64,000 nucleotides of DNA. It comes from Leeuwenhoekiella parthenopeia (GTDB taxonomy: Bacteria > Bacteroidota > Bacteroidia > Flavobacteriales > Flavobacteriaceae). Positions 1 to 63,876 of this stretch are shown one piece after another. The stretch's first letter is position 1, and each line of letters starts with the position of its first letter. Made by a program: the position numbers and the translations under genes. The DNA is taken from the NCBI RefSeq assembly GCF_020782115.1, contig NZ_JAJGMW010000010.1, forward strand, positions 82,357 through 146,356. The letters are read 5' to 3'. Below the pieces are notes generated by a model that was not told where the DNA came from, searched no databases, and worked only from the letters and a program-made list of their open reading frames with translations.

Positions 1-1160
1 ACTTCTCCTACAAGATAAAGACCTTCAAACTTTTTAGACTCATAAGTTCTAAAATCAACTTCCTTAAGATCAACCCCTCCGGCTGTCACAAATTCTTCTT
101 TAAACGTACTTTTTCCGCTTACGCGAAAAATCCCGGAACACAATTGCTCAGAGAGGGCTGAAATTTCAGCTGAAGTAAGATCGGCCCATTTTTGCGTTTC
201 CGAAATACCTGCAGCTGTCATCAATCGTTGCCAAAGACGTTTAGGCAAATTAAATGGAGTGTATTTAAACAAGTTTTGCTTTGCAAGTTTCAGGCGATAG
301 CGGTTTAACAAATCAAAAACCTGTTGCTTTGAAAAATCGGGCAGCCAGTTAATTTTAATCTTAAATTCATAATTTAAATTTTTAAGGCTACGCGCGCCCC
401 AGGCAGAAAGCTTCAAAATACCGGGACCACTAAGCCCCCAGTGTGTGACAAGAACAGGACCCCGGGCACCTTCCTTACCTACGGCAGAATTTTCTATATC
501 CAAATACTTTTCATCCAAATCAAGTAGAGAAACAACCGCATCTGTACTTAGTCCGGCAAGATCTTTTATACGTGTATCCGTTATATTAAACGTAAATAAG
601 GAAGGAACCTGAGGTACAATATCAAAACCCATAACGCCAAGCATTTGAAGTATTTTAGGATTGCTTCCGGTAGCCACGATTACGACCCGCGCCTCAAAAG
701 ATTGATTTTTTGTCGTTACCCTCCATAACAGGCCCTGCTTTTCGATTTTTAAAACAGTGGCCTTTTTAAAAATAGCAATACCCAATTGCTCAGCCTGATT
801 CAGAAAACAATCAATTACAGTTTGTGAGCTGTTAGATACCGGAAAAACGCGTCCGTCATCTTCAATCTTAAGATCAACTCCAAGATTTTCAAACCATTGC
901 ATCGTATCTCCCGTCATAAAAGAATGAAAGGGTCCTAACAGTTCGCGCTTGCCCCGCGGATAATATTCGGTAAGGGGTTTCGGCTCAAAAACTGCGTGGG
1001 TGAGGTTACAGCGCCCTCCTCCGGAGATCCGCACTTTTTCTAAAACTTCGGCACCGCGTTCTAAAATGGCAACAGATAAATCGGGGCTTAATTGGGAACA
1101 ATTAATTGCGGAAAAAAAACCTGCCGCTCCTCCTCCAAGTACAAGTACATCAACTTTCAT
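1..1160 (-). CDS. BaiN/HI0933-family FAD flavoprotein (3' end beyond window)
   Basis: Reading leftward from the ATG at 1158-1160 the frame stays open to the window edge, giving at least 386 residues. The N-terminus MKVDVLVLGGGAAGFFSAIN is a Rossmann GxGxxG FAD-binding motif, and SGGGRCNLTH about 45 residues in is the signature of the HI0933/YhiN (BaiN) group of flavoproteins. A later segment (GVMGFDIVPQVPSLFTFNI) also fits the family. Members are cytosolic FAD proteins of poorly defined role, some annotated as reductases. The family call is firm, the substrate unknown. The gene is truncated by the window edge, not by mutation as far as can be seen. Confidence 0.85.
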   Translation of the reverse strand, partial: MKVDVLVLGGGAAGFFSAINCSQLSPDLSVAILERGAEVLEKVRISGGGRCNLTHAVFEPKPLTEYYPRGKRELLGPFHSFMTGDTMQWFENLGVDLKIEDDGRVFPVSNSSQTVIDCFLNQAEQLGIAIFKKATVLKIEKQGLLWRVTTKNQSFEARVVIVATGSNPKILQMLGVMGFDIVPQVPSLFTFNITDTRIKDLAGLSTDAVVSLLDLDEKYLDIENSAVGKEGARGPVLVTHWGLSGPGILKLSAWGARSLKNLNYEFKIKINWLPDFSKQQVFDLLNRYRLKLAKQNLFKYTPFNLPKRLWQRLMTAAGISETQKWADLTSAEISALSEQLCSGIFRVSGKSTFKEEFVTAGGVDLKEVDFRTYESKKFEGLYLVGE

Positions 1161-1641
1161 AATGCAAATATAGTCTGCTAAAAACGAATGTAAGTTTTAC
1201 ATTAAAACAGAAAAATACTTAATCGATTTAGGCTCTTTATCTATAAAGGTTTCTTGATTTTCTAAATGCTCAAAAATCGCAAATCTGACGTTTTATGCTT
1301 TTTGTTAGCGTCCGATTTATCATTTTAAGTCGAAAATTCATAAAATTTAACATTTTTAAGATAAAAATATTAGCCTTTTTGAAGCTTGAAGACCAACACG
1401 GTCATTTTCAACCTATTCCAAAAAGCTTTGAATTTTTGATAAAATTATGAGTATATTTTATCAACTTATTAATTTATCAATAAAAAAATGTCGATAAACG
1501 TATAATTTACATTTTTCATTACGATATCGATTTCGTTACTTAAACGTTGTAGTGCCCATTTTTAAATAATTATTTATATAAATTTGATCACCAAGAAACA
1601 CTTTTGGAAAACCAAATAATTCAATTAAAAATTTCAAACTT
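1161..1641 (+). promoter_or_regulatory. susC upstream region with a LacI-type operator at 1217-1231
   Basis: This 481-base AT-rich gap holds no credible ORF. At 1217-1231 lies ACTTAATCGATTTAG, a CG-centred near-palindrome. It is the reverse complement of 15 of the 16 bases of the site in the lacI/GH32 divergent promoter (23445-23460). LacI-family regulators bind such CG-centred palindromes, so I infer that the regulator encoded at 22335-23378 also acts here. A second CG-centred stretch (gatatcgatttc) lies near 1523-1534. I could not place a -7/-33 promoter with confidence. Confidence 0.6.
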
Positions 1642-4600
1642 ATGAAGCATGTAATACTTAGAGGTATGTTGTTTTTAGCTTCGCTTTTACTGGCAGGTAT
1701 GGCGAATGCACAAACAGTATCCGGGACAGTATCGGAGCCTAACGGCCCATTACCAGGTGCTAACGTCCTTGTTAAGGGAACCACCAATGGTACTACAACA
1801 GATTTTGACGGTAACTATACTTTAAATAATGTTCCCTCAAATGCAACACTTGTTTTCAGTTATGTAGGTTTTGCACAGCAGGAAGTTGCTGTTAACGGAA
1901 GATCTACCGTAAATGTAACACTAGAAGAAGATGCTGCGGCACTTGAGGAAGTGGTGGTAATTGGTTACGGTACTACGACCGTACGTGATGCAACCGGTTC
2001 TGTTTCTTCGGTCACCGCAGAAGAGTTTAATCAGGGTGCTATCGCATCTCCGGAACAACTTATTCAAGGTAAAACTGCGGGGGTCAACATTTCTCAAAAT
2101 AGTGGTGAGCCAGGAGCTGGTAATAATATTCGTATCCGTGGTTCCAACTCTATTCGCTCGAACAACAATCCTCTTTTCGTAGTGGATGGTATTCCACTTT
2201 CCGGTGAGTCAACAACACCATCAGGAGGTGATATCATCAATGGTGCTAATGCTACAAGAAACCCGTTAAACTTTATCAACCCTAACGATATCGAGAGCAT
2301 TTCTATCTTAAAGGATGCTTCTGCTACAGCAATCTACGGTTCTCGTGGTGCTAATGGGGTTGTAATTGTAACCACAAAAAGCGGTCGCGGTGCACAGGGA
2401 GGTGTGTTCGAATTTTCTTCAAACATGAGTTTTTCTGCTCCTGCTCAAAACTATGACTTATTTAATGCTCAACAATTCCTTGCAAATACTGAAGAGTTAA
2501 GAGGGCAGGATATTGCTAATGATTTGGACTTTGGTTTTAATACAGATTGGCAGGATTATATAACCCGTTCAACAATATCTACAAACAACAACCTATCTTA
2601 TTCGAATAACTACAACTCAGGTAATATACGTGCAACCGTAAGTTATGGTAATATAGAAGGGGTTATCCAAAACTCTTCTCAAGAGCGTATCACTACGCGT
2701 CTTAACGCCAATCAGCGTTTCTTTGATGATAAATTAAGTTTTGCGTTGCAGGCATCGTATTCACGTGTAAATGATGAAGCACCACCTATCAGTGGGCAGG
2801 GTGGAGCCAGTGGTAACCTTATTGGTGCTGCTTACTCAGCTAACCCTACCTGGCCGGCTGACCCTGAGTTCTTTTTTGCGGGAAACCTTTTGAACCCCGC
2901 AAACTATTTGAACAACTACAATGCAAATACAAATACCAACAGGTATCTAATCAATTTATCTACAGAATATAAATTTACTGATGCCATTACCGGTAAAGTA
3001 AGTTTAGGTTATGATAACTCAGACGCTGAGGCACAAGCTTCGGTATCTCCGAACATCAATAACTTTAACCGTGTAACTGATAATGGGCAGGCATCTTTCA
3101 ATACACTGGAGAACACCAGCAAATTATTAGAAGCAACCCTTCGTTATGCTAAAGAATTTGACAATTTCAAAATTGATGCACTTGCAGGGTATTCATTTCA
3201 GGATTTCAGACGTCAGGGATTCAATGCGCAAGGTTATGGTTCTCCTGTAACAAATCTGTTAGATATGCAGGATGCTCTTAGAGGTGCTGTAAGTGATCTT
3301 CGCGGAAGAATCAATGTACCTTATCAACAATTTGGTTATGACAGTAATGGTGCTAATTCATTCTTAAATTCTCTTGTACCTTTTGACGACAGCGGTGTAT
3401 TACCATCTTTTACCGGAGTTTATGAAACTCTTTGGTTAGACACTTTTGATAACACAGACGAATTACAATCCTATTTTGCTCGATTACAGTTTACATTTTC
3501 TGAAAAATATCTACTTACAGCCACAATGAGAGCTGATGGTTCTTCTCGTTTTGGAGAAAACAATAAATATGGATATTTCCCTTCTGCTGCATTCGCTTGG
3601 CAATTGGGTGATGAAGATTTTATAGGCGATGCATTCTCAACCCTTAAATTAAGAGTTGGTGCAGGTTCTACCGGTAACCAGGAAGGTTTAGGTTATGCTC
3701 AGTATTTAAACAGACAGCGCTTTGGAGGTCCTGGTATTACTGATGATGGTACTGTTAACAGACCAGGTCTCGAAACTGTTGCGGTACAAAACCCTGATCT
3801 TAAATGGGAATCAACAATAGACCTAAACTTTGGTATTGATTTTGGATTTAATAATGACCGTTTTAATGGATCACTTGACCTTTATCGCAAAGCCACAAGA
3901 GACTTACTTTTTAGATCACCAGCTCCTGCTCCTGCATTTGATCCGTTCCGATTTGTTAACCTTGAAGATGGAGAAGTAATAAATAAAGGTGTGGAATTAG
4001 CTCTTAACTACGATCTTATACAGACTGAAGATGTAAACTTCTCAGCTTCTTTCAATATTTCTTACAACCATAACGAGGTAACGGGATTAAATGGTGCTGT
4101 TGCAAATTTTGGTGAAGTAAATGGACCTGGTCTTACCGGGGCGTTTGTTCAAAGACTTGGTGAAGGCAGATCCTTATTCTCCTACTATATGGCTGAATAT
4201 GCAGAAGATGCTAGTGGTAATCCTGATTTCTCTGCAGATGACAAAGTTTTTGTTGGCAAAGATGCATTACCAGACTGGAACACCGGTTTGTCTCTTAACC
4301 TGAGCGTTAAAAACTGGGATTTTTCTACGTTCTTTACCGGTCAGTTCGGTTTTTATGTGTACAACAACACTGCAAACGCATTCTTAAACAGACCTACATT
4401 CTTAACTTCAAGAAACAGTACATCTGATGGTTTGGCTTTGGTTTCACAGGAAGTTTCTACTCTCTATTTAGAGAACGGAGATTTTGTACGACTTCAAAAC
4501 GCTTCTGTAGGTTACAACATTCCTATGCGTGAGGGCTCTGCAATTCAATCGATGCGCGTAAATGTAACTGGTCAAAACTTATTACTGATCACGGGGTATA

Positions 4601-4728
4601 GTGGTTTGGATCCTGAAGTTTCCTCTTCAACCGGTGACTTTGGTAGTGGTATTCCTAGTGCAGGTATTGACTATACGTCATTCCCAAGACCTACTACAGT
4701 TACAGTTGGCTTAAATGCAAGATTTTAA
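1642..4728 (+). CDS. SusC/RagA-family TonB-dependent outer-membrane transporter
   Basis: The 1028-residue protein has a Sec signal peptide (MKHVILRGMLFLASLLLAGMANAQ). It continues with a carboxypeptidase-regulatory-like beta-sandwich (about residues 25-95), a TonB-box-like EEVVVIGYGT near 103-112, a plug domain with IRIRGSNSIRSNNNPLFVVDGIPL-type residues around 160-185, and a C-terminal beta-barrel ending in ...VGLNARF. Length and order are standard for SusC-type transporters, which import oligosaccharides or peptides with a SusD lipoprotein using TonB energy. susD follows directly. The LacI-type operator upstream and the saccharide genes at 19-27 kb suggest a glycan substrate, possibly a fructan or gluco-oligosaccharide. 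That substrate is inference. Confidence 0.95.
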   Translation: MKHVILRGMLFLASLLLAGMANAQTVSGTVSEPNGPLPGANVLVKGTTNGTTTDFDGNYTLNNVPSNATLVFSYVGFAQQEVAVNGRSTVNVTLEEDAAALEEVVVIGYGTTTVRDATGSVSSVTAEEFNQGAIASPEQLIQGKTAGVNISQNSGEPGAGNNIRIRGSNSIRSNNNPLFVVDGIPLSGESTTPSGGDIINGANATRNPLNFINPNDIESISILKDASATAIYGSRGANGVVIVTTKSGRGAQGGVFEFSSNMSFSAPAQNYDLFNAQQFLANTEELRGQDIANDLDFGFNTDWQDYITRSTISTNNNLSYSNNYNSGNIRATVSYGNIEGVIQNSSQERITTRLNANQRFFDDKLSFALQASYSRVNDEAPPISGQGGASGNLIGAAYSANPTWPADPEFFFAGNLLNPANYLNNYNANTNTNRYLINLSTEYKFTDAITGKVSLGYDNSDAEAQASVSPNINNFNRVTDNGQASFNTLENTSKLLEATLRYAKEFDNFKIDALAGYSFQDFRRQGFNAQGYGSPVTNLLDMQDALRGAVSDLRGRINVPYQQFGYDSNGANSFLNSLVPFDDSGVLPSFTGVYETLWLDTFDNTDELQSYFARLQFTFSEKYLLTATMRADGSSRFGENNKYGYFPSAAFAWQLGDEDFIGDAFSTLKLRVGAGSTGNQEGLGYAQYLNRQRFGGPGITDDGTVNRPGLETVAVQNPDLKWESTIDLNFGIDFGFNNDRFNGSLDLYRKATRDLLFRSPAPAPAFDPFRFVNLEDGEVINKGVELALNYDLIQTEDVNFSASFNISYNHNEVTGLNGAVANFGEVNGPGLTGAFVQRLGEGRSLFSYYMAEYAEDASGNPDFSADDKVFVGKDALPDWNTGLSLNLSVKNWDFSTFFTGQFGFYVYNNTANAFLNRPTFLTSRNSTSDGLALVSQEVSTLYLENGDFVRLQNASVGYNIPMREGSAIQSMRVNVTGQNLLLITGYSGLDPEVSSSTGDFGSGIPSAGIDYTSFPRPTTVTVGLNARF

Positions 4729-52338: not shown

Positions 52339-54582
52339 TCATTTCTTTTGAAGTATTGAATTAATGTAGTCAACCAATTTTACAACCCTGTCTTCTGTAT
52401 CCAATCCTTTTGCATTTTGCTCTATATAAAGTATGCCTTCTTCATCAATCACTTCGTAAGCTATAAGCTCATCATAAATTGGGTTTTTAACTCCTTCTGC
52501 ATTTTGGTTCTCAAAAAGGAAATGATTGCTGGCTATATTGACACTTATGGTGTTTTTCTTGATTTTCATAAAAAGTAGGTCGTTGTAATCACCAAGAATT
52601 AGCTTTTTGCTCTTTACCTGCCGATTTACTTCATAAAAAAACGGACACCAGTTAAAACCGTTGAATTGCTTCTGACGCATCTTATTAAATACATAATAGT
52701 CAAACGAATAGTAATAACCTCTGGAACATTCCCAGCGAAATGAAGGGTATTTGATAAAATAATATTTCCAATCCTTAGGCTTTGCTTCGTAAGATTCAAG
52801 CACTGTGTTAATGTGTTCTTTAATATCTGTGTTAGGTTTTTCTGCTAAGAAGTCTAAGCACTTCATCAGTACTGGTCGAGTATGTGAAAAAATATCTTTC
52901 TTCTTTCCGTAACCTGGTGTCGTGAAAAACTTTCTAATGACCTTTTTATTTGAGGAAAGAATATTGTACCAGCCTTCTTTTCTTTCTCCATTACCGCTAT
53001 CGTGTTGGGTGTAATCACCAAAACAGAGTAAGAAGTTAGCTCTATTAGAGAAGTCTTGAATTAGTACATCTTCATCGAAGTATTTTAAGAACTGAGAAGC
53101 TCTATGCTCTGCATTGTCGTCAAATTCAAATATGGATATATTTCCTCTAAAAATGTCGCTATCCTCTAAACGGTAAAAAGTATCAAGAGCTTCTTGGGTT
53201 TGGTAAAACGCTTCTTTCTCTTTTTCCTCTTGTATTTGGTCGGTTTTAAATCTCTTTAGGGCATCAAAATCAAAACTCAATAAGAAGGTTTCTAATTCTG
53301 TGATGCTTTCTACCAAGGTTTCTCTACGTAATTCAAATTCTGAATTTACAACAAGATTCCTTACAATTCTTAGTTTCCTCTCAAAGTCCTCTGTTTGATG
53401 AATGTTTTGGAATAAATAGCTATGCAATAACAGTTGCTCTGGTAAGCTAAAACCTCTATCCTTATCAAAATACAGTAAACAGCGAACTAATAAGTTATTC
53501 ACTTGGTGAGGGAAAAATAATCTTGTTTTATCCTTATGAAAACTAGCTTTATCGAAATAAAAAGTATTTCTCCAAAAATCAGGATTTGTCTCATTGCTAA
53601 TTACCAAGTTATCTAATATTGAAAAGAGTTCTTTTACATTATCTATGTTGCCGTAGATGTTTTTTAGCTCTTTAGATGATTCTACAGTATCAGAGTATGG
53701 TATATCGTTTTTAAGACCAATAACGTAGGTAATGAAGTTGAAGAGGTTTAAGAAGCTATTGTCTACTAATAAGGCAATATCTTTCACATTCTTAGCTTCC
53801 TCTGTTTCTAAGAGTAGATTCCAAATACAATCAAACCAATCTTGGTCTATTTGCTTTTCAAATTTTTGCTTTAGTTCTTCATCTGTAATAATCTCAGAAA
53901 AGTTTGCTTTGAAGTATTCAAACTCTGTAAGAGGTTTACCTCTTGAGTTCATTTTGATGTATAAATCATCCGATAACTTGAACTCACTTAATACCAGCTG
54001 ATACATTTCAAAAGGACAGTTTTCGCCTTTTAGAACTTGCCAAATATCTTCCAAACCATAATCATCATATCGAAATTCAATATCATCTAACACGACAAGC
54101 ATCGCTTGAATGCTTGGGTCAAAATCCCAAGTTTCAAAGTACCAAGACTGGTTTTTAATTTCGTCTGAAATACAGCTACTTGTGAATTGAGGGTTAAAAG
54201 CAATAAGTTTTTTACAAAATATGGTGGTACTGTGCCTTGTCTCGTAAACAAAGTTTTGAAGCGCCTCTTTTTCCTCTTTAGGTACACTTTCCTTTGATGT
54301 TACAAACCAATATAACAACCACAATACAGTAAGCCGTTGTTGCCCATCAATAGGTGAGAAGATTGGTTTATCACCTTGTGTTTTATTACCGTAGATAAAG
54401 TCTAACTCTAAATTTTTATGGGTGACTTTTTCTTTATTTTTAATAATTGTATCAAAAATGGCATCTAAGAAATCTCTTCTTATTTTACTGGTGTTTTTAT
54501 CTGTTCTGCCTTGGGCAAAATCTCGTTGAATGATTGGTATTTCAACTTTATCGGCAAGTATGTTTGTGAATTTAAGCTTCAT
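52339..54582 (-). CDS. DUF262 (GmrS/ParB-like) protein, second of the pair
   Basis: 747 residues. The N-terminal DUF262 domain has IPIIQRDFAQGRT and the signature DGQQRLT at 79-85, a ParB/Srx-like NTP-binding motif as in GmrSD type IV restriction enzymes. The long C-terminal part includes KPKDWKYYFIKYPSFRWE but no HNH motif that I can see. It overlaps the preceding DUF262 gene by 11 bases, so both are coupled. Such pairs are typical of phage-defence loci acting on modified DNA; here the activity is inferred. Confidence 0.8.
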   Translation of the reverse strand: MKLKFTNILADKVEIPIIQRDFAQGRTDKNTSKIRRDFLDAIFDTIIKNKEKVTHKNLELDFIYGNKTQGDKPIFSPIDGQQRLTVLWLLYWFVTSKESVPKEEKEALQNFVYETRHSTTIFCKKLIAFNPQFTSSCISDEIKNQSWYFETWDFDPSIQAMLVVLDDIEFRYDDYGLEDIWQVLKGENCPFEMYQLVLSEFKLSDDLYIKMNSRGKPLTEFEYFKANFSEIITDEELKQKFEKQIDQDWFDCIWNLLLETEEAKNVKDIALLVDNSFLNLFNFITYVIGLKNDIPYSDTVESSKELKNIYGNIDNVKELFSILDNLVISNETNPDFWRNTFYFDKASFHKDKTRLFFPHQVNNLLVRCLLYFDKDRGFSLPEQLLLHSYLFQNIHQTEDFERKLRIVRNLVVNSEFELRRETLVESITELETFLLSFDFDALKRFKTDQIQEEKEKEAFYQTQEALDTFYRLEDSDIFRGNISIFEFDDNAEHRASQFLKYFDEDVLIQDFSNRANFLLCFGDYTQHDSGNGERKEGWYNILSSNKKVIRKFFTTPGYGKKKDIFSHTRPVLMKCLDFLAEKPNTDIKEHINTVLESYEAKPKDWKYYFIKYPSFRWECSRGYYYSFDYYVFNKMRQKQFNGFNWCPFFYEVNRQVKSKKLILGDYNDLLFMKIKKNTISVNIASNHFLFENQNAEGVKNPIYDELIAYEVIDEEGILYIEQNAKGLDTEDRVVKLVDYINSILQKK

Positions 54583-56407
54583 TGAGTACTGGTGTTTTGT
54601 TTAAATAATGGTTTAAGCACTCGCCAATTTCTTCTAAGTGGTTTTCTCTTTCCACTTTTGTCCAGATAGATGATTGAGCATAAGATTCTTTTTGATAATA
54701 GTTTAGAAATACCCTCTTGGTAGCAATAGGAATAAATGCTCCTTTCTTATCCATCTCTATAACTTTTCTTCGCTTTATTTCGAAAATGGAATTACTCAAT
54801 GAGATATTTTCTGTTAGCCCTAAGAGAGCTAAGTTTTTAATATTGTGTAGATAAAGATTTTCATCTTCATCATCTTTTGGAAGTATCTCTATTATTGAAG
54901 CACTTAAATCCTGAAACTGAGCATAGGTGTATTTTTCTCTATCAATAGTTTTGGCTTTCTCAATGATTTCAGCTGCCTTTTTAGTGTTGGTAGTTATCGA
55001 GGGAAGCACGTTTAAGTGCATATCTAACCAAGAGAACCATTGCTCCCTTTTGTTCTCATTAATACCTATGATATTTTGAGCGTGAATGTGCTCTAAACTC
55101 TTATTAATGTTTTTGTAGATTTCAAAAGGGAAGAAATCGTTGTTGTTATTATTCTTTCTCGTAAGCTCCGTATTTACCAATAATAGAATTTCTATCAGCT
55201 TTTTGTGGTCGTTACGGTTGTCATAGCTTAAATCATCCCAATCATTAGGAATACTCTCTGCTATTAAACGGTTTATTTCTTGCTCAAAAAGGTCTTTATC
55301 ATTTTCTTTTTTGAGTTGGATAATATCCATAATGTTAGTGCCGATGGCAATGAGATAACCTACCTTGTGATAGTAATTTTTATGGGTGTACCAGTAACTT
55401 AATGAGCGGTAAATTTCTTCTATACTTAACCACTTTTCCCAAAGAGATTCTGCATTCTCTTTATCATCAAAGAAGTGAATGAAGCTGTATAGATTGTCTT
55501 TGCTACTATCTTTTTTCTGAGTAGCTATATCGAACAAGTATTCTATTTTGGAAGCATAACTATCCATCTTCTTATTGGATATGAATGCCCAGAATTTAGG
55601 GTTGTTGAGGTGGTTTTCAATCTCATCCCATAACTGTATTAGTTGGGTACGTCTTTTTACCTTTTCTTGCTCTCCAAACTCTTTGAAGCTTTCTTGATTT
55701 ACAAACTTTGCCTTGATTAGTTCTGCACTATTCAATGGAATTTTACCTCTATTAAGACGGGTAAATAGTTCTTCACTTTTTTGTGTATTATCATTTATTT
55801 CGTACCAAATAATCTGTGTACTCCATTCAGGCATAATGGTAGCACCATCTTCATCTTTCTTTACACTTGGTAGTAGTGTATCTAAAAAGTTGTTTTTATC
55901 AGAACGCCCTTCAATCTTACCACTATTTTCAAACCAATCTTTAACAGTGTCATAGGCTTTACTTAGATAATACAAATCGGGCTTAGTGAGATTACTTTCT
56001 GTTTGATTTAAGAATTGGCGTGTTTCTGGACGAGTTTGGTATTCTATAGTATAGATGTCCTCTTTATATTCATCACTGAATTTATCTATCCGTAAGTGTT
56101 CTATACGCAAATAAGTTAGGATTCTGTGAATGGTGGTTAATCGCTGCTGTCCATCAATTAACTCATAACCATCAATGGTATCTCCATTTTCTGAAAGCCA
56201 CGTTTTTTTACGTACCACTATGGGTTGAAGGCAGTAAAAGGAATTGACCTTAGCAGGGTCTTGCCTGTATTCCCAAATATCATTGAGCAATTGGCTAACA
56301 TTGTGGCTGGTCCATCTGTAACCACGTTGGTAATCGGGTATGTAAAAATGAAGCCCCAATAACTCGGTGATTGTTTTTAGTATGATTTGGTTTTCCTGTT
56401 TATTCAT
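54572..56407 (-). CDS. DUF262 protein with degenerate DUF1524-like C-terminus, first of the pair
   Basis: 611 residues. FYIPDYQRGYRW and DGQQRLTT (85-92) mark the DUF262 domain. Near the C-terminus, NIKNLALLGLTENISLSNSI followed by FEIKRRK resembles the tail of the DUF1524/HNH module (GNLTLL...N...FxxKR), but the upstream EHIxP catalytic motif is not found, so nuclease activity may be lost. Its start overlaps a small ORF by 8 bases, and it is coupled to the second DUF262 gene. Confidence 0.8.
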   Translation of the reverse strand: MNKQENQIILKTITELLGLHFYIPDYQRGYRWTSHNVSQLLNDIWEYRQDPAKVNSFYCLQPIVVRKKTWLSENGDTIDGYELIDGQQRLTTIHRILTYLRIEHLRIDKFSDEYKEDIYTIEYQTRPETRQFLNQTESNLTKPDLYYLSKAYDTVKDWFENSGKIEGRSDKNNFLDTLLPSVKKDEDGATIMPEWSTQIIWYEINDNTQKSEELFTRLNRGKIPLNSAELIKAKFVNQESFKEFGEQEKVKRRTQLIQLWDEIENHLNNPKFWAFISNKKMDSYASKIEYLFDIATQKKDSSKDNLYSFIHFFDDKENAESLWEKWLSIEEIYRSLSYWYTHKNYYHKVGYLIAIGTNIMDIIQLKKENDKDLFEQEINRLIAESIPNDWDDLSYDNRNDHKKLIEILLLVNTELTRKNNNNNDFFPFEIYKNINKSLEHIHAQNIIGINENKREQWFSWLDMHLNVLPSITTNTKKAAEIIEKAKTIDREKYTYAQFQDLSASIIEILPKDDEDENLYLHNIKNLALLGLTENISLSNSIFEIKRRKVIEMDKKGAFIPIATKRVFLNYYQKESYAQSSIWTKVERENHLEEIGECLNHYLNKTPVLNEA

Positions 56408-57991: not shown

Positions 57992-58228
57992 TCAGATCAT
58001 CAGATCAGGAAATTTATCTTCAACAAGTTTAAAAAATTCAGACAATTTTATTTGTCGAGCATCACAAATTTTTTTTAGAGTCTCAACAGGAATACGGTAC
58101 TCTTTTTCGTCAAGTATTCTTCTAACAATTTTCTCGTCAATGTTATGATTCAGTGCAAAATCACGATTTGATTTAGCATCCTCTATCCATTCTGAGATGG
58201 CATTAGATATGAGAACGTTGATATTCAT
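57992..58228 (-). CDS. Small XRE-type HTH regulator
   Basis: 78 residues from the ATG at 58228 (a TTG at 58237 is in frame). SNRDFALNHNIDEKIVRRIL and VETLKKICDARQIKLSEFFK form a Cro/CI-type five-helix HTH. It is divergent from the RNA-sigma-dCas12f locus, with a perfect palindrome in the shared promoter, so it probably represses itself and perhaps that locus. Confidence 0.75.
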   Translation of the reverse strand: MNINVLISNAISEWIEDAKSNRDFALNHNIDEKIVRRILDEKEYRIPVETLKKICDARQIKLSEFFKLVEDKFPDLMI

Positions 58229-58257
58229 ACAGAACAAAGGAAGAATATCAATTAAAA

Positions 58258-58287: not shown

Positions 58288-58369
58288 AAAGAATATTATA
58301 TTTGACTCATAATTATATATTTGCGAAACTTCTTAGCATAACATATTAGAAGCATTCGCTTTGAATCTC

Positions 58370-58475
58370 GAATCAAAAACTGGTAATTTTTAGCAACGAG
58401 AGGATAAGCAGGGATGCTCACGACCCGGGCGTGGGCTCTCGCTTATTGTTGCGCGGTATACCAGTACCTTGATTC
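58370..58475 (+). ncRNA. Structured RNA candidate upstream of the sigma/dCas12f genes
   Basis: Nested pairings: GAATCAA (58370-58376) with TTGATTC (58469-58475); CTGGTA (58380-58385) with TACCAG (58459-58464); GCAAC (58393-58397) with GTTGC (58448-58452); ATAAGC (58404-58409) with GCTTAT (58441-58446); GCTCACG (58416-58422) with CGTGGGC (58430-58436). No ORF explains it. GCGCGGTATA (58451-58460) can pair at 9 of 10 bases with UAUACAGCGC at the 3' end of some array scaffolds, so a tracr-like role is possible. Alternatives are a leader of the sigma mRNA or an unrelated mobile-element RNA. Confidence 0.5.
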
Positions 58476-58651
58476 AATAAGTTGAGACCTGCGCCTTTTT
58501 GTATTGGGCCTTTACTTCAGCTTTCAAAGCCTTTGTTTCCTTCCTAAAAAGTTTCTACAACCTCCCCCTACACCAGTTAGTAGTCCGCTTTTGCGGCCTA
58601 ATCAACAATACCCCTAAAACAGCATTTGTAGAACCAAAAACGGGTACGGTT

Positions 58652-59449
58652 ATGAAGCACTATCCCAGTGAAATCCATTTTGAGTCTTTTAAAGCGGGCT
58701 GCAGCCAGGCATTTAATGCCCTGTATAAACACTATTACCGGCCTATCTATTGGACGGGCAGAACCTTAATAAAAGATGTGTTTGTTGTGGAGACCCTGGT
58801 ACAGGATGCCTTTTTAAGGCTTTGGCACAAACGCGACGACATTGAGTCGCCCCAACATCTGGTTAATTTCCTATATGCGGTCATGAACAACGACTGTAAA
58901 TGGTTTTATGTACGACCGGGGAATCAGTTTCAGCGTAGTTTATATTCTTTTGATGATTACCCGAACTATCCCGACTACCGATGGGGCTATGATCCCGAAG
59001 AAGTAGATACGCATCTAAAAGAGCAGCAAAACAGGCAAAAAGACTATGAGCAGATCATCACCATCTTACCCCTGCTGGGTAATCAGTCCAAACGCCTTAT
59101 TGAACTGGCTTTGGAGCACGGCTTTAAATACAAAAGCATTTCGGAGCAGATGGGTATCAGCATTAAGGAAGCCAGCAACCTGATGAAGGATTCCATCGAG
59201 CAGATCAGAAACATCCTGCAACAGGGAGCTCTGGTGGTGAATACGAATTCGGCTTCGGAGAATGCCTCTCAACCTAAAGCGCTAACCGAGCAGGAAGCCC
59301 GGGTACTGGCCCTGCGCTGCGAGCAGCAGTATTCCTTTGCCCAGATTGCAAACGAACTCAAGCTTTCTCAAAAAGAAGTGCATCGTGCTTTTACCACGGC
59401 CTATCAGTTTCTACAGGAGCAACACGATAATCAATTACAATCTGCCTGA
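58652..59449 (+). CDS. ECF-like sigma factor paired with dCas12f
   Basis: 265 residues from the ATG at 58652; a TTG at 58499 would add a Phe-rich extension without family support. Residues 10-90 are sigma region 2 (SFKAGCSQAFNALYKHYYRP, TLVQDAFLRLWHKRDDI), like SusCD-linked ECF factors of Bacteroidota. Region 4 (about 135-190) has an HTH (YKSISEQMGISIKEASNLMK). Unusually, a second HTH-like module follows at 211-256 (LTEQEARVLALRCEQQYSFA, QIANELKLSQKEVHRAF). No anti-sigma gene is adjacent. Instead the dCas12f gene starts two bases after the stop, implying that the two products work together. Confidence 0.85.
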   Translation: MKHYPSEIHFESFKAGCSQAFNALYKHYYRPIYWTGRTLIKDVFVVETLVQDAFLRLWHKRDDIESPQHLVNFLYAVMNNDCKWFYVRPGNQFQRSLYSFDDYPNYPDYRWGYDPEEVDTHLKEQQNRQKDYEQIITILPLLGNQSKRLIELALEHGFKYKSISEQMGISIKEASNLMKDSIEQIRNILQQGALVVNTNSASENASQPKALTEQEARVLALRCEQQYSFAQIANELKLSQKEVHRAFTTAYQFLQEQHDNQLQSA

Positions 59450-59451
59450 TT

Positions 59452-60549
59452 ATGAAAACCAAAACCCTCAGCCTTACCCGTAAAATCCAACTCAATATAG
59501 ACCTGCCCGATTATGAGGAGCGTAAAGCCGCGATGGCAAAGCTTTACGACTGGCAATACTGCTGTTTTAAAGCTTCCAATATTATCGTAAGCCATCTCTA
59601 CGTGCAGGAAATGATCAAAGAGTTCTTCTACCTTACCGAGGACATTCAGTATAAGCTGGCAGATCAAAAAAAAGACGAAAATGGCATTCTAAACCGTTCG
59701 CGAATCAACACCACCTACCGGGTGATCTCAGACCGGTTTAAAGGTAAAATCCCCACCGAGATCTTATCGAGCCTTAACCGGAATCTGGAAAGCGCATTTA
59801 AAAAGAATGCACCGGAGTATTGGAGCGGGGAGCGCTCCCTTCAAAACTTCAAACGGGATAATGGCTTTCCCTTTGGTCCTTATAGCATGTATTGCTTTAA
59901 ATACGATGAAGAGCGCAATTGTTTTTGTTTCCGGCTCTTTAAAATTCCCTTTTGCACCTATCTGGGCCGGGACTTCTCCGATAAGCGGGTATTGTTGCAC
60001 CGGGTACTCAAAGGCGAAACCCGCTTACGTACCTCCCAGATCAAATTAAAAGACGGCAAGATCTTCTGGCTGGCGGTCTTTGACATCGAACAGGAACATT
60101 ATGTCTTAAAGCCTAATGTGGTGGCAGAGGCTTCCCTGTCTTTAGAATATCCCATCACGGTTAAACTGGGCAGCCACAGGCTCCATATCGGCACCAAAGA
60201 AGAGTTTTTATACCGCAGGCTGGCGATTCAGGCTGCGCGTAAACGGGCGATGGCCGGATCGGTGCATTCCCGGGGTGGTCACGGGCGCAAGCGCAAGCTT
60301 AAAGCCGTTGAAAAGTTTAAGAAGAAGGAAGCCAATTACGTGAATCAGCGTCTGCACGTGTACAGCCGGAAACTCATAGACTTTTGTGTCAAGCATCAGG
60401 CCGGCACCCTTATCCTGGTCAATCAGGAAGCCAAAATAGAAGCCGCACAGGAAAACGAGTTTGTACTCCGAAACTGGAATTACTACGAACTCATGACCAA
60501 AATCAAATACAAAGCAGAAAAAGCGGGGATTGAGCTGGTGGTAGGATAG
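59452..60549 (+). CDS. Nuclease-dead TnpB/Cas12f-family RNA-guided protein
   Basis: 365 residues. The bridge/RuvC core GRKRKLKAVEKFKKKEANYV, then NQRLHVYSRKLIDFCVKHQA, and the ending NWNYYELMTKIKYKAEKAGI are hallmark TnpB/Cas12f sequence. The RuvC-I position GIDLG reads TVKLG (Lys238 for Asp), and the RuvC-II Glu reads Val323 in GTLILVNQ. The protein stops at GIELVVG, before the usual Cys-x2-Cys zinc ribbon and RuvC-III Asp. DNA cutting should therefore be impossible, while guide-RNA binding may remain. The sigma gene is two bases upstream and six guide-like RNA units lie downstream. The family is firm; RNA-guided transcription is inferred from context. Confidence 0.85.
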   Translation: MKTKTLSLTRKIQLNIDLPDYEERKAAMAKLYDWQYCCFKASNIIVSHLYVQEMIKEFFYLTEDIQYKLADQKKDENGILNRSRINTTYRVISDRFKGKIPTEILSSLNRNLESAFKKNAPEYWSGERSLQNFKRDNGFPFGPYSMYCFKYDEERNCFCFRLFKIPFCTYLGRDFSDKRVLLHRVLKGETRLRTSQIKLKDGKIFWLAVFDIEQEHYVLKPNVVAEASLSLEYPITVKLGSHRLHIGTKEEFLYRRLAIQAARKRAMAGSVHSRGGHGRKRKLKAVEKFKKKEANYVNQRLHVYSRKLIDFCVKHQAGTLILVNQEAKIEAAQENEFVLRNWNYYELMTKIKYKAEKAGIELVVG

Positions 60550-60629
60550 TTCTTTGGTTTTAATCTGGAAGATAACTTTGAACTCAAAACTTTTGAACTC
60601 AAAACTTTTGAACTTTAAACTTAAATAGA

Positions 60630-60717
60630 GGGTGCCTGTACAACCACAAGGTGAGATTAATAATACTCACTAAGTGTCCTGAGACATATACAGCGCGTGA
60701 CATCTGACTTAAAAGAA
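60630..60717 (+). ncRNA. Guide-RNA-like unit 1
   Basis: Scaffold 60630-60697: stem GGGTG/CAACC (one mismatch), GTGAG/CTCAC with loop ATTAATAATA, GTGTC/GACAT with loop CTGA, then ATACAGCGCG. Candidate guide TGACATCTGACTTAAAAGAA follows. Confidence 0.65.
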
Positions 60718-60764
60718 AAAACTTGACTTTGAATCCGAAACATTGAATATTGAATTTATAAGGA

Positions 60765-60853
60765 GGATGCTTGTACATCCATAAGGTGAGATCACAGATA
60801 CTCACTAAGTGCAGTGGGCACATACAAAGCGCGGGCAAATCGTATAGTAATTC
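60765..60853 (+). ncRNA. Guide-RNA-like unit 2
   Basis: Scaffold 60765-60833: GGATG/CATCC, GTGAG/CTCAC with loop ATCACAGATA, GTGC/GCAC, then ATACAAAGCGCG. Candidate guide GGCAAATCGTATAGTAATTC. The first stem is GGATG/CATCC here against GGGTG/CACCC elsewhere, a compensatory change. Confidence 0.65.
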
Positions 60854-60906
60854 CTGACGTACGCCTTACATCTGAACTCATAACTCAAAACTTTGAACTA
60901 AATAAG

Positions 60907-60994
60907 CGGAGCCTGTACACCCATAAGGTGAGATCACAGATACTCACTGAATGTCGAAAGGCATATACAGCGCGTGACCATCCGCTTTAAAATG
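60907..60994 (+). ncRNA. Guide-RNA-like unit 3
   Basis: Scaffold 60907-60974: the first stem is weakened (CGGAG against CACCC), GTGAG/CTCAC is intact, and the third stem is ATGTC/GGCAT with a GAAA loop, then ATACAGCGCG. Candidate guide TGACCATCCGCTTTAAAATG, which resembles the guide of unit 1 in part. Confidence 0.6.
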
Positions 60995-61089
60995 AATATA
61001 GGCTGATGAAAGAAAAAATAAGGCCAGGTAAATTAACCGAATCTATATTGACTCTGAACTCCTGACTCAAAACTTTAAACTAAATAAGG

Positions 61090-61177
61090 GGGTGCTTGTA
61101 CATCCCTAAGGTGAGATTTACTAATACTCACTAAGTGCAACGGGCACATACAACGCGTGAGCTTACTTATTTAAAAC
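61090..61177 (+). ncRNA. Guide-RNA-like unit 4
   Basis: Scaffold 61090-61157: GGGTG/CATCC (wobble), GTGAG/CTCAC, GTGC/GCAC, then ATACAACGCG. Candidate guide TGAGCTTACTTATTTAAAAC. A GGCTATAGCC palindrome lies about 30 bases past the guide. Confidence 0.65.
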
Positions 61178-61258
61178 CGGATACGATGAGCTTATAGGTT
61201 TAAAGCTTTTGGCTATAGCCTTATGAATAAAAAACCTTGAATATGGAATTTGATTGGA

Positions 61259-61346
61259 GGGTGCTTGTACACCCATATAGTGAGGTCGAAGATACTCACT
61301 AAGTGCTACGGAGCATATACAACGCGAAGGTTCATTCTATTTCAAT
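61259..61346 (+). ncRNA. Guide-RNA-like unit 5
   Basis: Scaffold 61259-61326: perfect GGGTG/CACCC, GTGAG/CTCAC with loop GTCGAAGATA, GTGCT/AGCAT with loop ACGG, then ATACAACGCG. Candidate guide AAGGTTCATTCTATTTCAAT. Confidence 0.65.
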
Positions 61347-61402
61347 ACCCTACGGTATACGTACACGTTGCACTCCTAACTCTGGATTTAAACTTAATAA
61401 GA

Positions 61403-61490
61403 GGGTGCCTGTACACCCGGAAGGTGAGGTCATTAAACACTCACTAAATGCAAAAGCATATACAGCGGACGTGAGTGATTTACAAATTTT
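61403..61490 (+). ncRNA. Guide-RNA-like unit 6 (degenerate 3' end)
   Basis: Scaffold from 61403: perfect GGGTG/CACCC, GTGAG/CTCAC, ATGC/GCAT with loop AAAA, then ATACAGCGGACG, which departs from the GCGCG end of the others. Candidate guide GTGAGTGATTTACAAATTTT. It may be a decaying last unit, and it runs up to the end of the convergent bfmA-like gene. Confidence 0.5.
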
Positions 61491-62682: not shown

Positions 62683-63876
62683 ATGAAGCTCAACTACCTA
62701 AGGCAATCTCCTAACCCAAATTACTTACCTCCTATAAGTTCAAATCATCAAGAATTACCTATTTCGGAAATGCCTTGGAAAGAATTCGAAAAACTCTGTC
62801 TAAGGATGGTTCAAGAGATAGATAAATTTTCAATTCAGGATTCTCAAATATTAGGAAGAGGAGGTCAGAAACAAGAGGGTATCGATATATATGCGGTTAC
62901 TAAAAAAGGAAACTATGAAGTTTATCAATGTAAAAGATATAAGAAACTATCAACTTCCAATATTGATAGATTAATTGCAGAATTTAAAATAGGTAAATGG
63001 TTTATTAAATCTAATTCATTTACGCTTTGTACAAGTGTATCTTTTGATGATATAAAGCTTCAAAATGAAATTGAGAAACATAGACTTGACCTAAAACAAC
63101 GAGGAGTTAATTTGAAAATATGGGATTCTTCTAAAATTAATTTAATGCTTAAGTCGCATCCAAAACTCGTTTTAGATTTTTTTGGACCAGTTTGGTTAAA
63201 CGCCTTTTGCGGAAAGCACGTTTATGATAAAATCACAAACTCAATAGATATAAATGATTTAAAAAAGTGTTTTAAAAAAGCTTCACTTTTCATAGAGCAG
63301 ACTCGGAATTATTTTGAAAATGTACCCTCAACACATATTATTAGGAAAGAATTTAAAACTATCACAAAATGGATTGAAGAAGATTTAGTTAATCCAAATA
63401 AAAACTTACTTGTTATTGAGGGGGTTAAAGGCATAGGTAAATCAGTAGTAATTAAAGATATATACAATTTTCTGAATAACGAAGGTTATTTGACATTAGG
63501 AATTAAAGCTGATAAATACTATGCCTCCACACCAAAAGAATTAGAGAATAAAATATTTGCCAATGAAGAGGTTACTTTAGAAAAAATTTTAAAACTTGTA
63601 AACTCACAAAACATAAAGCTGGTTGTTTTAATTGACCAAATAGATGCATTATCTCTTTCCTTATCATCAAACAGAGAATTCTTACACACATATAATAGAT
63701 TAATTAATGAGCTCCTTAATGAAAAGAATGTACGTATTATAATATCTTCTAGAAGTGAAGATTTAAAATACGATGCTGAACTAAGCAAGTATAAAAACAA
63801 CGATTTCCGAAACATTATCGTCTCCTTACTTAGTGTAGAAGATGTAAAAAAAGTATTGCTGACTTTTGATATATGA
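62683..63876 (+). CDS. Mrr-like nuclease/STAND-type NTPase, truncated by an IS element
   Basis: 397 residues. The N-terminus is an Mrr-type PD-(D/E)xK nuclease: WKEFEKLCLRMVQ, Asp68 in QEGIDIY, and Gln82-x-Lys84 in YQCKRYK. A P-loop ATPase follows with Walker A GVKGIGKS (247-254) and Walker B LVVLIDQIDAL (313-323). The frame ends at 63876, exactly where the IS3-like end begins, so the downstream sensor part, expected in Avs-like proteins of this layout, is missing or lies beyond the element. Probably an inactivated anti-phage gene. Confidence 0.75.
   Translation: MKLNYLRQSPNPNYLPPISSNHQELPISEMPWKEFEKLCLRMVQEIDKFSIQDSQILGRGGQKQEGIDIYAVTKKGNYEVYQCKRYKKLSTSNIDRLIAEFKIGKWFIKSNSFTLCTSVSFDDIKLQNEIEKHRLDLKQRGVNLKIWDSSKINLMLKSHPKLVLDFFGPVWLNAFCGKHVYDKITNSIDINDLKKCFKKASLFIEQTRNYFENVPSTHIIRKEFKTITKWIEEDLVNPNKNLLVIEGVKGIGKSVVIKDIYNFLNNEGYLTLGIKADKYYASTPKELENKIFANEEVTLEKILKLVNSQNIKLVVLIDQIDALSLSLSSNREFLHTYNRLINELLNEKNVRIIISSRSEDLKYDAELSKYKNNDFRNIIVSLLSVEDVKKVLLTFDI

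Follow-up and report, generated by a model that had tools for sequence, protein, structure and literature searches.

A sigma factor-dCas12f locus with six guide-like RNA units in Leeuwenhoekiella parthenopeia, and a structured element that its guides are predicted to address

The stretch of DNA analysed here, 64,000 nucleotides of the flavobacterium Leeuwenhoekiella parthenopeia (hereafter the window), carries in a row a gene for an extracytoplasmic function (ECF)-type sigma factor, a gene for a nuclease-dead Cas12f (dCas12f) and six guide-like RNA units. Together they probably constitute an RNA-guided transcription activator, the guides of which are predicted to address a structured element that lies before operons of outer-membrane nutrient uptake (susCD operons) and before the sigma gene of the system itself. 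Activating susCD operons, as well as its own operon, under the direction of RNA guides is the likely function of the locus; the sites matched by the six guides are candidate targets. A preliminary description of the window, which read the locus as an RNA-programmed switch acting on several operons at once, is partly supported by the analysis presented below. The window corresponds to positions C2:82357-146356 of a 4.42 Mb assembly of 58 contigs; in the working labels used here G000 is the window's own genome, C2, C58 and C1 are contigs, and L-numbers are fetched loci of relatives.

The sigma factor and its dCas12f partner

The sigma gene (58652..59449, + strand) encodes a protein of 265 aa with Pfam sigma-70 regions 2 and 4 (Sigma70_r2, r4), residues 10-265 of which align to chain 9n9q_C, "RpoE" (E 3.2e-66); the start at 58652 is a choice made from this alignment, the alternative being a longer, TTG-started frame from 58499. 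The sigma frame ends at 59449 and, after a gap of two bases, the ATG of the dCas12f gene follows (59452..60549, + strand). Residues 4-365 of its 365-aa product align to 9n9c_A, "Nuclease-deactivated Cas12f" (E 1.2e-165), and the dCas12f chain is also part of entry 9n9q, together with the RpoE chain. Compared with the Cas12f chain 9nzo_B, the window protein has Ser228 in place of the Asp of VGVDLG and Val323 in place of the Glu of the second motif, two positions which I take to be the catalytic RuvC residues; the alignment ends with 92 of the 506 residues of that chain left, and this C-terminal part, presumably the region holding RuvC-III, is absent from the window protein. The gene order and the two-base gap given in the preliminary description are exact (58652-59449, 59452-60549, with the guide units at 60623-61490), and its statements that the sigma factor is ECF-like and that RuvC residues are lost hold as well.

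Since the pair corresponds to the two partners of a solved complex, the locus is assigned to the dCas12f-sigma kind already known, of which it represents a form with a long guide array. The likeness to the dCas12f-sigma(E) system (PDB 9n9c, 9n9m, 9n9o, 9n9q) extends over nearly the full length of both proteins, and the apparent features in common are the homology of the effector, the homology of the adjoining sigma factor, the lost RuvC residues and the guide units just downstream. The locus of Allomuricauda (Flagellimonas) taeanensis (L018), which I assume to be the species of the solved complex, has the same gene order as the window, but a single homologous guide unit; the guides of the window are of other sequence classes, and no susCD operon lies beside the window locus. 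That the locus is a relative of Cas12f-sigma pairs, as initially proposed, is supported by direct protein matches, and by a guide scaffold shared across nearly all the loci surveyed (see below). Among the matches listed, a literature search gave no primary paper on the dCas12f-sigma system and none on the element. The effector also shares homology with CRISPR-Cas12f of type V-F (PADLOC Cas12f, E 6.1e-54), from which the window differs in a RuvC domain that, by its residues, would not be nuclease-competent, and in that every unit has a full scaffold of its own.

A protein search returned 964 relatives of the dCas12f at E <= 1e-3, the best 120 of which are 360-374 aa long and 64-96% identical to it; the closest among the matches listed, 96% identical, comes from Leeuwenhoekiella marinoflava. 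The window's genome holds a second sigma-dCas12f operon on C58, with one guide unit and a dCas12f 61% identical to that of the window. About 1.4 kb from this second operon, in L157 (G000 C58:142000-155000), a gene at 288-4637 on the - strand encodes a 1449-aa Cas9-like protein with Pfam HNH_4 and RuvC_III.

An array of six guide units on a covarying scaffold

The array occupies 60623-61490 directly after the dCas12f gene, with all units on the + strand. Unit U1 lies at 60623..60711 (guide from 60695, GCGTGACATCTGACTTA; hit of the covariance model R2 at 60623-60698, E 8.3e-17) and is followed by U2 at 60758..60845 (guide from 60829, GCGCGGGCAAATCGTAT; R2 60758-60832, E 1.8e-19), U3 at 60900..60988 (guide from 60972, GCGTGACCATCCGCTTT; R2 60900-60975, E 4.8e-14), U4 at 61083..61171 (guide from 61155, GCGTGAGCTTACTTATT; R2 61083-61158, E 3.8e-19), U5 at 61252..61340 (guide from 61324, GCGAAGGTTCATTCTAT; R2 61252-61327, E 2.2e-18) and U6 at 61396..61483 (guide from 61467, GGACGTGAGTGATTTAC; R2 61396-61470, E 3.2e-18). 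The six units were thus detected twice, by repeat search and by R2 (E 1.8e-19 to 4.8e-14), in whose training set they were included; independent support therefore comes from the hits outside the window. In a survey set of 80 sources, namely the window and 79 related loci, R2 found 127 units in 79, and the sequence of the sole source without a unit, L005, ends 17 bases past the matched gene.

The scaffold consists of three hairpins and ends mostly in CATATACAAC, after which the sequence is variable. Over the 127 units, two-sided changes occur in 9 of the 17 pairs, a level reached by none of 500 shuffles; folded as single sequences, the six units of the window are modest (z -0.57 to -3.15). The six structured units of the preliminary description are accordingly recovered by both methods, though its view that each ends in unique sequence needs qualification: the 3' ends do differ, but four of six begin GCGTG or GCGCG, and the guides are therefore not wholly unique.

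Guides could be read from 115 of the 127 unit hits, in 74 sources; six sources yielded no readable guide, five of which do have model hits. One guide per source is the rule (49 of the 74), 25 sources having two to six, and the six of the window are the highest number, in agreement with the extended array first noted. By model hits L. marinoflava (L002) also has six units, a row of four plus two more at a distance of about 7 kb. The commonest guide start among the relatives is GCGTGGGCTCTCTTATT (16 of 95 units). Guide units also occur away from their own dCas12f gene, at L021:20022-20096 (- strand), G002:C18:92647 and G001:C3:571.

A structured element upstream of the sigma gene

At 58359..58502 on the + strand, before the sigma gene, lies a structured element of about 144 nt (model R1), which is new here; it covaries and is unmatched in Rfam 15. 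It was not among the observations of the preliminary description. The element, with its nested helices, was found as a strong hit upstream of the sigma-dCas12f genes in 41 of the 80 sources, with two more weak hits. Changes on both sides were seen in 14 of its 32 pairs; four of five covariation measures beat all 500 shuffles, the fifth being reached by 9 of 500, and in a first, independent alignment of 26 sequences 13 of 32 pairs were compensated. Rfam 15 gave no match in the whole window, element and guide units included, and matches around the element were weak and non-coincident only, none at gathering score. Three further candidates with weak scores, L197-L199 (E 0.8-8.6), turned out to be unrelated to the element.

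In the window, the inner hairpin has a guide-like site in its 3' arm (GCGTGGGCTCTCGCTTATT, 58429..58447, + strand), preceded by a G at 58428 and belonging to the commonest guide class of the relatives. This arm and the bases that follow read GCGTGGGCTC..CTTATT after the G; in other words, the commonest guide of the relatives is one strand of the element's inner hairpin, directly after G. The same site strand also pairs with the 3' strand of its own element, on average 7.91 within versus 7.14 +/- 0.07 between elements (a value reached by none of 200 permutations, over 82 distinct elements); the two pairings share bases and would therefore compete. Site and end of the 3' strand are 68 or 69 apart in 50 of the 77 elements, out of 82 distinct ones, in which the spacing was measurable. 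Two weak element hits (L024 and the second of L042) were omitted from the pairing, spacing and guide-to-site analyses. As for its surroundings, a stretch at L003:7016-7032 (- strand), just upstream of the self element of L. polynyae and in opposite direction, shares 15 of 17 bases with the guide GCGTGAGCTTGCTTATT.

Association of the element with susCD operons and with dCas12f

A search of seven genomes gave 16 copies of the element: eight stand before a sigma gene of the dCas12f-sigma kind, five have SusC in the fetched flank, one more has SusC about 2.1 kb off (on C1 of the window's own genome), and the remaining two, both the weakest, have neither. The window's genome holds three elements, one at the window operon (C2), one at the sigma-dCas12f operon of C58 and one at the susCD operon of C1. 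Pfam confirmed SusC and SusD for both C1 and L164, and NCBIfam did so for the C1 pair as well. Within the genus, 10 of 13 genomes have the element.

Where the dCas12f locus itself gave no element hit, the element is mostly found elsewhere: a whole-genome check covering 20 of 38 such sources, which lie in 19 genomes, showed 36 copies in 17 of the 19. Thirty of these copies were fetched, 16 of them with SusC in the flank, 4 with a sigma gene of the dCas12f-sigma kind and 10 with neither. In a sample of 120 genomes of the family, 24 carried the element and 5 a dCas12f (E <= 1e-30); each of these five also has the element, versus 19 of the 115 others (Fisher P 2.2e-4).

Guides and element match at the level of the family

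Guides and elements were compared over 12 bases, ungapped, for 73 distinct guides and 99 elements (82 distinct). Guides of the GCGTG type converge on a single place in the element, which is mostly preceded by G. The dCas12f-sigma kind reportedly (2025) starts new transcripts where a guide directs it, with a G on the 5' side of the target; here the guides match such sites at the level of the family, whereas in the window's genome the best match reaches 9 of 12 bases. At least 10 of 12 bases agree in 43% of 49 guides, counting only the starts GCG, GGC, GGA, GGG, GAC or GCA, versus 0.5% of shuffled guides, a control in which all guides were used. Unlike guide classes fit unlike element classes (the TTCATCT, AGGTTCAT and GACGTGAGTG types); for instance, guides of L. 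blandensis (L006, TTCATCT type) match elements of other Leeuwenhoekiella genomes (L242, L244).

As to the guides of the window, the best match over all elements is 12 of 12 for U4, 11 for U5 and U6, 10 for U1 and U3, and 9 for U2, and with bases 6-12 shuffled an equal match is rare for U4, U5 and U6 (P 0.02-0.03). The sites concerned are, for U5 and U6, two SusC-linked copies of the genus (L246 and L243, respectively); for U1 and U2, SusC-linked copies of L. polynyae (L155 and L152); for U3, the SusC-linked L210; and for U4, the self element of L027.

Not all conserved guides fit the element: TTGTGGGATA(C/T)ACGC and CCTTCCCT(T/A)AAAGATTA, two types found in L018, L019, L021, L027 and in L062, L065, L070 and C58 of G000, do not, and must be directed at other targets.

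A candidate mechanism and its alternatives

In the proposed mechanism, a guide would carry the dCas12f-sigma pair to the DNA of the structured element, where the sigma factor would, as reported for this protein family, recruit RNA polymerase, with transcription starting downstream. Each guide of the array may serve a different class of element, and one array could therefore cover several susCD operons along with self-control, in which the element before its own sigma gene would let the pair drive its own operon. The most economical account would be that the address used by dCas12f-sigma is a leader element of susCD operons that is older than the system. I further suggest, tentatively, that the element might be a shared address tag of the outer-membrane nutrient-uptake operons, its inner hairpin coming in several classes and the guide arrays carrying a key for each, such that one RNA-guided sigma complex would regulate a varying set of susCD operons, and its own production as well, by way of a structure-switching leader. 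If true, RNA guides would choose which of the many susCD nutrient receptors are expressed, and a new receptor operon could join this control by the addition of one guide. The covarying element, absent from Rfam 15, would also give the recently solved protein complex a concrete and testable target.

Several observations weigh against an activator that addresses this element. All six window guides have their best sites in other genomes; over the three elements of their own genome the ceiling is 9 of 12 bases, attained by U4 with both self elements and by U6 with the susCD element of C1. The shuffle test is weak for U1 (P 0.33), U2 (0.64) and U3 (0.18), and some guides of relatives, such as TTGTGGGATATACGC and CCTTCCCTTAAAG, misfit the element. 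Across 24 genomes that offered guides as well as elements, the latter counted only where their locus had been fetched, matching within the own genome averages 10.08 versus 9.95 +/- 0.17 for shuffled genomes (70 of 300 as high) and, per guide, 9.20 versus 9.06 +/- 0.15 (54 of 300 as high). Direct genome searches by guide sequence were made with U1, U3 and U4, the remaining three being compared with elements only: U3 (20 nt, up to 3 mismatches) matched itself only, and U1 stayed at control level in three genomes (13 vs 12, 14 vs 15, 8 vs 12). U4 did exceed its control (19 vs 8, 25 vs 11, 21 vs 6); among 30 of its matches fetched with context, 22 are inside an open reading frame (ORF) and five are guide units, the one informative match being an element copy in L. 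marinoflava (L114). Guide sequence was therefore rejected as a way of finding targets in the own genome. Of the preliminary description's reading, the susC link stands at the family level, by way of the element, while the own-genome matches fall short. Nor do the data bear out several operons being switched on at once, for a single susCD-linked copy, that of C1, was found in this genome. The distance from element to SusC, approximately 0.5-2.1 kb, is long, too.

A further difficulty is that the element occurs in 19 of the 115 genomes of the family that gave no dCas12f match; many genomes, then, hold it independently of dCas12f. When 37 genomes (19 with the element, 18 without) were searched again at E 1e-5, 18 of the 19 element-only genomes still lacked dCas12f, and one had a remnant of 52 residues. 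Moreover, 20 regions around copies in 11 dCas12f-less genomes showed SusC in 14, with SusD also in 13, and no clear guide unit (best E 0.13); the six others, all from G056, gave no convincing SusC or SusD. These six copies (L250-L255) come from a genome with no dCas12f; several precede small genes of about 110-120 aa, none a convincing SusC.

These genomes, and the absence of an own-genome preference in guide-site matching (at most 9 of 12 in the window's genome), would suit an element that controls susCD operons independently, its likeness to guides being a trace of guide origin and the array largely lacking targets in this genome. Such independence is rather unlikely, given that guides of several dissimilar classes each fit elements of dissimilar classes, and that all five genomes with dCas12f have the element too. 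It is less probable again that the guides act on RNA, the element being a leader that switches between its inner hairpin and the 3'-end pairing, and the guide RNAs, which have the sequence of the hairpin strand concerned, pairing in trans with its 3' part so as to alter folding or termination. The preference of the site strand for its own 3' strand speaks for this, as does the T-run in which many copies, the window's included, end; several copies, however, end in CCCAACTTT without a T-run, so that termination is not general, and the T-run was dropped as a general terminator. The homologous complex, moreover, is bound to DNA and includes a sigma factor, and the sites stand mostly after G, as reported for the DNA target.

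An activator also has to be set against a repressor, in which an element-bound dCas12f would block transcription and the sigma gene would have another role. TldR proteins, as described in PMC13418256, are TnpB-like, nuclease-dead repressors, and they resemble the window's effector in that a protein of TnpB/Cas12f type, nuclease-dead, acts along with a guide RNA. Repression by dead TnpB relatives is thus known, and the element does precede the genes that would be silenced, those of the system itself included; what distinguishes the window from TldR is the sigma partner adjoining the effector, and as this partner matches the RpoE chain of 9n9q, an entry which also contains the dCas12f chain, repression seems improbable here.

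Genomic surroundings

Scans for promoters and terminators were approximately at shuffle level (10 vs 7.9 and 3 vs 4.3, respectively). Divergent from the element lies a small helix-turn-helix (HTH) gene (57992..58237, - strand; Pfam HTH_26, E 2.8e-5). According to ORF lists, several other element copies have a small ORF at the corresponding position, either HTH-like or unclassified, and the counterpart in L158 had no match in Pfam. Farther upstream, two large adjoining genes (52339-56407, - strand) are possibly a defence island: the 611-aa product of one has GmrSD_N and GmrSD_C domains, and its 747-aa neighbour gave no PADLOC match. Downstream of the array, at 62683-63876 on the + strand, a gene encodes a protein with Mrr_cat and AAA domains.

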